Part shown: piece after piece, positions 11,652 through 14,582 of the stretch
Position numbering within the stretch: the stretch's first letter is position 1
Layout of the letters: every line of letters begins with the position of its first letter
NCBI GenBank assembly: GCA_027452265.1
Contig: DAIDGR010000062.1
Location: 1-64,000 of the forward strand
Direction of reading: 5' to 3'
Origin: Caulobacteraceae bacterium
GTDB lineage: Bacteria > Pseudomonadota > Alphaproteobacteria > Caulobacterales > Caulobacteraceae
DNA length: 64,000 nucleotides
The notes under the pieces: generated by a model
The model's database searches: none
Told to the model about the DNA's origin: nothing
The model's input: the letters and a program-made list of their open reading frames with translations, nothing else
Position numbers and translations under genes: made by a program

Positions 11652-11889
11652 GCGCGAGCATCGAGGCGTGTTCGTCAACACCAGCGGATCTGTAGCGCAG
11701 CAATCCGCGAAATCGCTGTTGTGACGGTGAAATCCGCGCCGCCGCCAAACGGCGCACAGTCCAGGCCGTTGTATTGGCCTGCGCCATCACGCGGCTTGGT
11801 GACGCATGTTGAACATTCACCGTCAAATCTGAAGTATCTTCTCGATCTGGGGGCGGGCAATGATGCCCAGATCATGCCGCTGCGAAACC
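11652..11889. other. AT-richer intergenic stretch with nested inverted repeats
   Basis: 238 bases between the convergent methyltransferase and HNH genes. No credible gene. A perfect 10-bp inverted repeat, TGACGGTGAA (11722-11731) and TTCACCGTCA (11816-11825), encloses two smaller hairpins. One uses GCGCCG/CGGCGC around 11737-11755; the other is CAGGCC (11762-11767) with GGCCTG (11776-11781). These could be terminators for the convergent genes or a decayed small mobile element. Confidence 0.4.
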
Positions 11890-12450
11890 TTACGCCTCCA
11901 GCTCAATGTCCCAGTAGAGGTAGTCGAGCCAGCTCTCGTGCAGGTGGTTGGGCGGGAAGCGGCGGCCGTGATCCTGAAGTTCATACATAGTCGGCCGGTG
12001 GGGCGGACGGCGGGGCTGCAGGCCGGCCTCGCGCGGGGTGCGTCCGCCCTTGGCGAGGTTGCAGCTCGCACAGGCCGTGACGATGTTCTCCCAGCAGGTC
12101 CGGCCCCCGCGTGAGCGCGGGATCATATGATCGAAGGTCAGGTCCTCGGTACGTCCGCAATACTGGCAGGTGAAGGCGTCGCGCAGGAAAAGGTTGAAGC
12201 GGGTGAAGGCCGGCGGACGGTCCTGTGTGACATAGCTGCGCAGGGAGACGACGCTCGGCAGGCGCATCTCGAAATTGGGCGCGTGAACCACCTGGTCATA
12301 GGTTGAGACGACATCGACCCGGCCGAGGAACACGGCCTTGATCGTTTCCTGCCAGGGCCACAGCGACAGCGGGTAATAGGACAGGGGTCTGAAGTCGGCG
12401 TTCAGCACCAGGGCCGGCGCGCCGGACGGCGGACGGTTAAGAACCTCCAC
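11890..12450 (-). CDS. HNH endonuclease
   Basis: 186 residues. The HNH nuclease core has CQYC (95-98), FDHMIPRSRGG (106-116, catalytic His108), Asn122 and CASC (127-130) forming the structural zinc site. The N-terminal VLNADFRPLSYYPLSLWPWQ region is found in a widely conserved alphaproteobacterial HNH family whose biological role is not established. GTG start with a strong GGAGGG ribosome binding site. No restriction methylase or phage gene is nearby, so I infer a housekeeping-type family member. Confidence 0.88.
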   Translation of the reverse strand: MEVLNRPPSGAPALVLNADFRPLSYYPLSLWPWQETIKAVFLGRVDVVSTYDQVVHAPNFEMRLPSVVSLRSYVTQDRPPAFTRFNLFLRDAFTCQYCGRTEDLTFDHMIPRSRGGRTCWENIVTACASCNLAKGGRTPREAGLQPRRPPHRPTMYELQDHGRRFPPNHLHESWLDYLYWDIELEA

Positions 12451-12811
12451 GACGCCCTCCGTCAGGGGTGTGGGTCAAAGGGCCGGTAAGGCGCGTGGGG
12501 CTGAGCGTTCCGAGGCTGAAGGCGTCTCTCCTCCCGGTGGAGTGGTCGCATCCGGCGCGTCGGTCTGGGACGAATCACCAAACGAACTCGCCTGCCCCGA
12601 CCATAACCGGGCTCGCGCGACATCTCCATGACGCTACGCGGATCAAAATCTGGATATTGGAGTCGGATTTGCGCCGTTTTCGCGCCGGCTGGGGCCAGGC
12701 GCCGGGGCGGCAGGCCCCTCAGGCCAGACCTCGGGCCAGAATACGGGCCGGGAGAGGCGACAGGCCTCTCCCTCGCGTGCCGCGCATCGTTCTGGCGCTC
12801 AGCGCCCGATC
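12451..12811. other. Intergenic region with hairpins, no gene seen
   Basis: 361 bases between the HNH gene and the small peptide gene, both leftward. It must contain the HNH promoter. Besides the strong hairpin listed separately, a small stem GGGGC/GCCCC lies at 12704-12718. The leftward open frame across 12462-12932 has an Arg/Pro-rich composition typical of non-coding frames in GC-rich DNA, and I do not accept it as a gene. Confidence 0.4.
12750..12772 (-). terminator. Stem-loop downstream of the small membrane-peptide gene
   Basis: Perfect 9-bp inverted repeat GGGAGAGGC (12750-12758) and GCCTCTCCC (12764-12772) with a 5-base loop, 40 bases after the small-peptide stop in its direction of transcription. 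There is no T-run, so intrinsic termination is uncertain; it could instead protect the 3' end. Confidence 0.45.
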
Positions 12812-12916
12812 TTAGACGAGGGCCACGGCGCCCGCGATCAGCGCGCCCAGCCCCATCAGGAAGGCGGCGGCGAAGCGATCGAGGAAGCTTTCGACGGAAA
12901 GGTTGATCTTGGTCAT
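12812..12916 (-). CDS. Small (34-residue) membrane peptide
   Basis: A short reading frame, ATG at 12916 to TAA at 12812. The peptide starts MTKINLSVESFLDRF, a polar and possibly amphipathic segment, then a single hydrophobic helix (residues about 16-34, ending GAVALV). GAAGGG lies 8 bases before the ATG, a sigma70-like promoter lies at 12984-13011, and a hairpin follows the stop. It is divergent from a TetR regulator, which may control it. I do not recognise the peptide. An overlapping ATG at 12932 in another frame gives a low-quality Arg-rich product. Confidence 0.55.
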   Translation of the reverse strand: MTKINLSVESFLDRFAAAFLMGLGALIAGAVALV

Positions 12917-12983
12917 GGTATGCACCCTTCATGTGGTTGAAAATCCCTCCCCCGCGGAAGGGCTGTCCGATCTGGACGATGCT

Positions 12984-13020
12984 TAGATAGCACGCATCTG
13001 AACGGCGTCAAGATAATCTT
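12984..13020 (-). promoter_or_regulatory. Promoter of the small membrane-peptide gene with adjacent palindrome
   Basis: Read leftward: -35 TTGACG (13011-13006), 16-base spacer, -10 TATCTA (12989-12984). This is the best sigma70-like promoter in this part of the window and would give a leader of roughly 60 bases. An 11-base palindrome, AAGATAATCTT (13010-13020), overlaps the upstream edge of the -35 box. It lies between the divergent TetR gene and the small gene, where a TetR operator would be expected; that role is inference. Confidence 0.5.
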
Positions 13021-13053
13021 TACAGCGTTTGGATAAAAAATTACGGTGTCCAT

Positions 13054-13707
13054 ATGAGCGAGACCCTCCATTCCGCCCCGTCCGCCTCCGCCGAGGAGGC
13101 GCCGCGGCGCTATCATCACGGCGATCTCTCCCGAGCCCTGGTGGCGGCGGGCCGGCAGATTCTTGAACGCGATGGGCCTGACGCCCTGTCTCTAAGGGCC
13201 GTTGCGCGAGAGGCCGGGGTCAGCCCGGCGGCGCCCTATCACCACTTCAAGGACAAGGCCGAGTTGCTCGAGGCCGTGGCGCATGAGGGCTGGGAGGAGC
13301 TTGGCGGGGCGATCAAGGAAGCGCGCGGGCGTGTGGACGCCCCGGGCGCCGCTCCGGGCGAGATCGGCGTCGCCTATGTCACCTTCGCGCGGAAGAACCC
13401 GGCGCTCTATCGAATCATGTACCGCATGGCCTGCGACCGCGAGGCCATGCCCGAGGGCGCCAAGTCAGAGGACAGCGGCTGGGACCAGGTCCGGGCCGCG
13501 ATCATCGAGGCTGGGGTCGACCCTCACGATGAGCGGGCCATGATGCTGACCCAGATCGCCGCCTGGTGCACCGCCCATGGCGTGGCCGAAATGGCTGGAT
13601 TCAAGGAATTCGACTCGCTCAAGGCGGCGCTGGGCGGCGAGGAGGCCTTCATCCGGGAGGTCTTTCGGCACGTGGGCGTGATGTCCGGACGGCGCTCGCC
13701 CTCTTGA
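13054..13707 (+). CDS. TetR/AcrR family transcriptional regulator
   Basis: 217 residues. The N-terminal helix-turn-helix (about 20-65: YHHGDLSRALVAAGRQIL, then LSLRAVAREAGVSPAAPYHHF) is a textbook TetR DNA-binding domain. The C-terminal ligand-binding half (VAYVTFARKNPALYRIMYRMA) is of the WHG/TetR_C_33 type. Family members are usually repressors released by a small molecule. The start is ATG 13054, preceded by an AT-rich segment. It diverges from the small membrane-peptide gene. The next gene, gluQ, begins inside its stop codon (TTGA). Confidence 0.92.
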   Translation: MSETLHSAPSASAEEAPRRYHHGDLSRALVAAGRQILERDGPDALSLRAVAREAGVSPAAPYHHFKDKAELLEAVAHEGWEELGGAIKEARGRVDAPGAAPGEIGVAYVTFARKNPALYRIMYRMACDREAMPEGAKSEDSGWDQVRAAIIEAGVDPHDERAMMLTQIAAWCTAHGVAEMAGFKEFDSLKAALGGEEAFIREVFRHVGVMSGRRSPS

Positions 13708-14582
13708 GCCGCCTCGCCTCGGACCGGGGCGTCGTCACCCGTTTCGCACCCTCGCCCACCGGCTGGCTGCATCGCGGTCATGCCTTCTCCGCGCTGACCG
13801 GCTGGACCCTGGCCCAGGAGACCGGTGGGCGGTTCCTGGTGCGCATCGAGGACATCGACGTCACGCGATGTCGTCCGCTGTTCGAGGCGGGGATTTTTGA
13901 GGACCTGGCCTGGCTGGGCCTGGACTGGGAGCGGCCCGTCCTCCGCCAGTCGCAGAGGATGGATCTTTATCGCGCCGCCCTGGCGCGGCTTGACGCCCGG
14001 GGCCTTCTGTATCGCTGCTTTCGCACCCGGGCCGAGCTTCTGGCCGGCATGGCCTCCGCGCCACACGGTCCTGCAACACAAGGCGCGGTCGAGCGACCGG
14101 GCCCCGCGCCCCTCGCTGAGGAGGCCCGGCGGCTGGCGGCCGGCGAGCCCTTCGCCTGGCGTCTGGACGCGACCAAGGCCATCGCGGCGCTGGGAGGGCC
14201 TCAGATCCTGGCCTTTGAGGAGCGCGGCGCCGGACCGGATGGCGAGACGGGCCAGATCGCGCCTGATCCGGACCTGCTGGGCGATGTCGTCCTGGCGCGC
14301 AAGGACCTGGGCGTCAGCTACCATCTCGCGGTGACCGTGGACGACGCCGCCCAGGGCGTCACGGAGGTGGTGCGCGGCGAGGATCTATTTTCCGTCACGC
14401 CGATCCAGCGCCTGATCCAGGCCCTGCTCGAACTGCCCGCGCCCGCCTATCGTCATCACCGTCTGATCCGGGGCCCTGACGGCGCCCGCCTCGCCAAGCG
14501 CGACGCGTCCCAGACCCTGCGTCAGCTGCGCGCCGAAGGCCTGACGCCGGCGGATCTGCGTGCGGCCCTGGGCTTCGTCTGA
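13704..14582 (+). CDS. gluQ: Glutamyl-Q tRNA(Asp) synthetase
   Basis: Truncated paralogue of glutamyl-tRNA synthetase that attaches glutamate to queuosine in tRNA(Asp). 292 residues from TTG 13704, which overlaps the TetR stop as TTGA; an in-frame start further upstream would lie within tetR. The class I motifs are FAPSPTG (14-20) with HRGH as the HIGH equivalent, and LAKRDAS as the KMSKS equivalent near residue 266. The anticodon-binding domain is absent, as expected. Only one Cys (YRCFRTR) remains in the region that binds zinc in some homologues. Confidence 0.92.
   Translation: MSRLASDRGVVTRFAPSPTGWLHRGHAFSALTGWTLAQETGGRFLVRIEDIDVTRCRPLFEAGIFEDLAWLGLDWERPVLRQSQRMDLYRAALARLDARGLLYRCFRTRAELLAGMASAPHGPATQGAVERPGPAPLAEEARRLAAGEPFAWRLDATKAIAALGGPQILAFEERGAGPDGETGQIAPDPDLLGDVVLARKDLGVSYHLAVTVDDAAQGVTEVVRGEDLFSVTPIQRLIQALLELPAPAYRHHRLIRGPDGARLAKRDASQTLRQLRAEGLTPADLRAALGFV

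Follow-up and report, generated by a model that had tools for sequence, protein, structure and literature searches.

No part of bacterial proteomes is annotated as poorly as the single-helix proteins of fewer than 40 residues, although regulator-controlled single-helix small proteins are already known. AcrZ, a single-helix protein of 49 aa that is co-regulated with stress responses, binds and tunes AcrB, and TisB is a repressor-controlled single-transmembrane peptide of Escherichia coli. Both TisB and DinQ of E. coli are membrane-active toxins under the control of LexA and antisense RNA, and DinQ too is a repressor-controlled toxic single-transmembrane peptide (PMC3567139 for DinQ). In the Caulobacteraceae, SidA (29 aa) and DidA of Caulobacter crescentus are very small single-helix inner-membrane proteins that are controlled by a stress regulator (LexA or DriD), induced by DNA damage and block division (PMC4211646), and 94 small CDSs shorter than 50 aa were reported from ribosome profiling of Caulobacter (PMC4117421). 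By analogy, the closest working model for the peptide family described here is WatS1-WatS5 of Methylomonas sp. DH-1, dispersed homologous one-helix small proteins of about 50 aa that are proposed to tune an efflux pump; their basal expression is repressed and their regulator WatR, of the LysR type, also activates an RND pump (PMC10355033).

What sets the present family apart from these systems is a private TetR regulator together with cassette-like multiplication, which is unusual. Like the WatS set, the family comprises several homologous, unannotated one-transmembrane smORFs that are dispersed (here in Phenylobacterium) and have the sites of one regulator overlapping the -35 element. In contrast to WatS, the regulator is a TetR, repression is a prediction from the sequence, the apparent regulon contains no pump and the bacterial class is a different one, the likeness being by description and not by sequence. 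AcrZ is also a small single helix and tunes a large membrane protein, as the peptide is proposed to do, but no pump is linked to the peptide here and this likeness too is by description only. SidA and DidA share the bacterial family and the format of the protein with our peptide, but no SOS box lies near the peptide gene. DinQ and TisB differ from the peptide, which is preceded by TetR operators, is broadly conserved beside its regulator and has one Asp that never varies. The features below were located in the window, that is the whole stretch of 64,000 nucleotides that was analysed.

12812 to 12916, minus strand: gene for a 34-aa single-helix membrane peptide, MTKINLSVESFLDRFAAAFLMGLGALIAGAVALV, read directly and by script; the stop codon TAA ends at 12812
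12925 to 12930, minus strand: Shine-Dalgarno sequence GAAGGG; SD-like A[AG]GG/GGAG/GAGG in 56 of 66 relatives
12984 to 12989, minus strand: -10 element TATCTA; TATCT in 65 of 66 relatives
13006 to 13011, minus strand: -35 element TTGACG; TTGACG/A in 64 of 66 relatives
12970 to 12988, no strand: putative operator O2, ATCTAAGCATCGTCCAGAT, overlapping the -10 element and the start region
12996 to 13014, no strand: putative operator O1, ATCTTGACGCCGTTCAGAT, containing the -35 element
13016 to 13034, no strand: putative operator O0, ATCCAAACGCTGTAAAGAT, on the side of tetR and with one mismatch; probably serves autoregulation
12794 to 12807, minus strand: small GC hairpin, GGGCGCTGAGCGCC, directly past the peptide stop
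12750 to 12772, minus strand: perfect 9-bp hairpin without a T tract; possible terminator, unproven
13054 to 13707, plus strand: TetR-family regulator (PF00440, E 5.4e-14; PF13305, E 7.3e-10)
13686 to 14582, plus strand: gluQRS-like tRNA synthetase gene (PF00749), overlapping or abutting tetR, start uncertain
11890 to 12450, minus strand: HNH endonuclease gene (PF01844), a conserved flank given as context and not part of the unit

The first-pass annotation had described a complete transcription unit, and its promoter TTGACG-16-TATCTA, leader, GAAGGG, ATG, 34 codons and TAA were all located in the sequence. On the minus strand the -35 and -10 elements are separated by 16 nt, the leader measures about 60 nt and the ATG is at 12916. 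A generic scan, whose model is that of E. coli promoters, did not call this promoter. We nonetheless consider it more than a chance match because TTGAC[G/A]-16/17-TATCT is kept in 64-65 of the 66 related loci having both O1 and O2. The hairpin said to end the unit fared less well: the perfect 9-bp inverted repeat is present, but it lies 39 nt beyond the peptide stop, has no T tract and was not called by the terminator scan, which found none, so that it is only a weak candidate for a terminator in the home genome. The small hairpin at 12794-12807 is closer to the stop. Many leaders of the family contain a small hairpin, but of ordinary energy (median z -0.6 with a mononucleotide-shuffle control), and no conserved RNA structure emerged from them. 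No Rfam family scored above gathering in the region 11800-13900, and a sub-threshold match inside tetR to the snoRNA sR44 (13223-13275, minus strand, 23.7 bits against a gathering score of 45) is most likely due to chance.

A TetR-anchored survey of named genome contigs gave 80 loci, and homologous peptides of 30-38 aa are encoded at the same site, divergently from tetR, in 78 of them; the other two are cut by contig ends. The pooled dN/dS, calculated from 40 independent pairs among 116 peptide genes, was about 0.31. Since the frame is kept in relatives and dN/dS is this low, the ORF is a genuine gene, and the codon comparison indicates that it evolves under purifying selection. The first-pass annotation had taken the peptide with its own promoter for a real small membrane protein gene, and the kept frame, the dN/dS and the synteny with TetR bear this out. 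Loss of the frame in relatives, which it had named as refuting the reading, was looked for, and the reading withstood the check. In all 116 peptides the best 19-residue stretch has a mean hydropathy of at least 1.75 and the final 15 residues are free of charge. One Asp, which opens the hydrophobic helix, does not vary in any of the 109 distinct peptides (109/109). Past this Asp, conservation reaches about 90% at two Ala positions, and two Gly-rich ones hold mostly Gly, Ala or Ser; the Gly/Ala-rich positions are 29 and 33-35. AlphaFold predicted one helix for the window peptide, spanning residues 3-33 (pLDDT 88.8).

A search of 60 genomes returned homologues with 71, 65 and 58% identity in the same genus and weaker matches further out, each confirmed orthologue being divergent from an orthologous TetR. 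Copies are present in many Phenylobacterium and in Caulobacter vibrioides (the orthologue of strain DSM 9893 is MNRTLNAFETAFDRMAAGYFLVIALGVAAAIFGVVL), and the window peptide is about 30-40% identical to those of Caulobacter, with strong divergence apart from the Asp and the small residues. Profile searches against Pfam and NCBIfam gave no match for the window peptide and, for 40 of its relatives, only scattered single matches at chance level (E 0.03-0.1). PADLOC returned no match suggesting a link to defence, and a literature search, with thin coverage of subscription journals, retrieved no description of the family. Homologues in genus g2 (G016, G084 and G099) have an in-frame TAA inside the matched stretch and are possibly early ends or decayed copies.

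The conserved unit of the intergenic region is a 19-bp palindrome, ATCTNNRC-N3-GYNNAGAT, of which the window contains three copies, at the -35 element, at the -10 element and start site, and on the tetR side. When matches at 11 or more of the 12 positions were counted in 81 upstream regions, the unit occurred 283 times with a gap of 3 and at most 9 times with any other gap. A different palindrome, AAGATAATCTT, had been put forward as the TetR site by the first-pass annotation. It is present, with 5-bp arms around a central A, but corresponds to the junction of two copies of the 19-bp palindrome; the half-site pair that forms it has gaps of 0, 1 and 2 among the 81 upstream regions, whereas the 19-bp unit keeps a constant N3 spacing, and AAGATAATCTT was rejected as an operator. 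Control by the divergent TetR, the wider claim, is strongly indicated by the operators, the synteny and the perfect co-occurrence described below, and regulation of the peptide by TetR is strongly supported by these sequence comparisons. Most primary promoters have three 19-bp units, and 36 of 37 secondary promoters have one or two, without the tetR-side unit. The absence of O0 at secondary peptide copies suggests that O0 serves tetR.

The TetR protein begins with a TetR HTH domain, and its model (AF2, pLDDT 85.1) has an all-helical TetR fold that matches solved TetR proteins; its best Foldseek match and nearest solved structure is 3on2 (E 8.5e-07, TM 0.70), which is without stated function. 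The gluQRS-like gene directly follows tetR in 80/80 loci and is probably co-transcribed with it, and the HNH gene is a conserved flank in 71/80. When up to 1 mismatch is allowed, the O0/O1 pattern GTMAAGATNATCTTKAC has a single match in the home genome, where the next best site has 2 mismatches, and likewise in nearly every genome having it (about one per genome in relatives). A double operator was found in 97 of 199 Caulobacteraceae genomes, at 1-2 per genome and with 0 hits for the reversed control; by-eye comparison with TetR coordinates placed these sites next to TetR, with few exceptions on other contigs. Among the 15 best-ranked operator-like loci of the home genome, only the home promoter lies outside long ORFs and none points to an efflux pump. 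The home regulon appears from these sites to be limited to the peptide and tetR-gluQRS.

Linkage of peptide and regulator is exclusive among the 149 Caulobacteraceae genomes compared, the peptide being present in 85/85 TetR-positive and 0/64 TetR-negative genomes. Initially 82 of the 85 matched, and inspection found the peptide at the expected place in the remaining three; the Fisher p of about 4e-39 was computed before these were added. More than half of the Caulobacteraceae sampled have the family, and the model genus Caulobacter is among them. Some of the genera without TetR have an empty site, where about 175-220 bp separate HNH from gluQRS and both TetR and peptide are missing (L216, L220, L227). 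Perfect co-occurrence and empty sites together indicate that the peptide-TetR unit is gained or lost as a whole. In TetR-negative genus g4 (L217, L218) the HNH-gluQRS distance is about 850-950 bp, compared with about 200 bp in the other TetR-negative genera. Of 385 Alphaproteobacteria genomes, 10 matched the peptide, and none is a real case beyond the family: two are this genome and one of the same family, and in the rest the match is a fragment of a frame of 131-643 aa. As far as tested by such searches, the peptide is restricted to the Caulobacteraceae.

Peptide genes are often multiplied. Two stand in tandem in 29 of the 80 loci and three in 4, and nearly every additional gene has an operator unit, or a pair, to itself. 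The window's genome has one copy, and some Phenylobacterium genomes have 4-9, several of them on other contigs. These dispersed copies share a block of about 290 bp consisting of an ATGC..GCAT palindrome, operator unit(s), leader hairpin, RBS and peptide, which in most cases is closed by a T-rich terminator and in which the second operator unit is often degenerate. An off-site copy (G070 C27, L208) is again preceded by an operator pair. Around the dispersed copies the genes are unrelated to one another (aldo-keto reductase, Rieske oxygenase and RND pump, TonB receptor, IS110 transposase), and none recurs that would qualify as a partner from the neighbourhood; therefore the peptide needs no particular neighbour. 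HNH and gluQRS were likewise discarded as partners, both still being near neighbours in several genera without the unit. Several of the dispersed cassettes of Phenylobacterium relatives (L194-L200, L202-L205 and L207, in G171, G139, G135, G159 and G076) are at contig ends, and a palindrome of the ATGCGAAAACGCAT type marks their left side. The ATGC..GCAT palindrome was dropped as a general mark of extra copies, as it is found upstream of dispersed cassettes but at only 5 of 37 tandem copies.

The first-pass annotation had left the function as unknown, between a regulator of a membrane protein, a stress peptide and a toxin. The choice can be narrowed: with no partner gene linked in cis and with a multicopy set in some species, the peptide is more likely to modulate a membrane protein in trans than to be a subunit encoded in an operon. 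We consider it somewhat better than an even bet that the peptide acts on its own as a micro-effector that modulates an inner-membrane protein and is freed from repression by the binding of a ligand to TetR. A TetR dimer would bind the 19-bp palindromes O0, O1 and O2 in the intergenic region common to both genes. Occupancy of O1 and O2 would cover the -35 element and the -10/start region and repress the peptide promoter, and O0 would let TetR limit transcription of tetR itself and of gluQRS. Induction would follow when a ligand detaches TetR from the promoter, the short mRNA giving a burst of peptide. The peptide would insert in the inner membrane as a single helix, its topology probably being N-terminus in the cytoplasm and C-terminus at the outer face, and it would pack against a larger membrane protein encoded elsewhere through the helix face rich in Gly and Ala and through the invariant Asp, which sits where the helix begins. 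A transporter or an envelope enzyme is a candidate partner, whose activity the peptide would alter; this may help the cell to withstand whatever it is that TetR detects.

The strongest competitor to this proposal, which we would give roughly one chance in five, is that the peptide is itself membrane-active in the manner of TisB or DinQ, with TetR keeping a potentially harmful peptide off; on release of TetR the peptide would lower the membrane potential or permeability and slow growth. A short, very hydrophobic single helix under tight multi-operator control would suit this, DinQ being a precedent for a repressor-controlled toxic single-transmembrane peptide (PMC3567139), and the strong drift outside a few positions, that is beyond the Asp and small residues, would suit a generic membrane-active peptide as well and speaks against a modulator. 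The invariance of the Asp (109/109) and the dN/dS of 0.31, however, point to a specific interaction, a copy number of up to about nine in one genome also speaks against a toxin, and the Rfam search of 11800-13900, which covers described families only, gave no sign of a TisB-like antisense RNA. A peptide that stands alone, in several copies, and never loses this Asp is more readily understood as a specific modulator acting in trans than as a generic pore former.

A sensing loop, in which the peptide signals the state of the membrane to TetR or offers TetR its ligand, as feedback and without another protein as target, would agree with the strict one-to-one occurrence of peptide and TetR and with a home regulon apparently made up only of the peptide and tetR-gluQRS; with just 34 residues, a very short cytoplasmic part and diverged N-termini in the extra copies, we regard this as improbable. 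Slightly less probable still is a block of division through binding of a divisome membrane protein, as by SidA or DidA of Caulobacter. The bacterial family, the size class (PMC4211646), the single inner-membrane helix and the repressor control agree with it, but control is by TetR and not by LexA or DriD, the three matches of the window to the SOS box GTTCN7GTTC are not near the gene, and multicopy dispersal is not described for SidA. A chance frame beneath a region conserved only for its promoter and operators might be suspected from the very short ORF and its low-complexity hydrophobic composition; it is refuted by a frame kept in 116 genes at dN/dS 0.31 and by tandem duplicates that keep the protein, and we give it almost no weight.

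Modulation of a membrane protein in trans remains our preferred reading, and beyond it we would tentatively, with the odds somewhat against us, see in the family an undescribed class of membrane micro-effectors, with a private TetR, spread as self-contained cassettes of about 290 bp (operators, promoter, peptide and often terminator) so that one repressor runs diversified peptides on one target. Dispersed cassettes of this kind are an unusual case of a regulon assembled by copying a single tiny gene. The family lacks a Pfam or NCBIfam model and has a private regulator with a defined 19-bp operator, so that it is directly testable. On the other side of the intergenic region, autoregulation of tetR may, through the gluQRS-like gene, link queuosine modification of tRNA(Asp) to the signal that governs the peptide.
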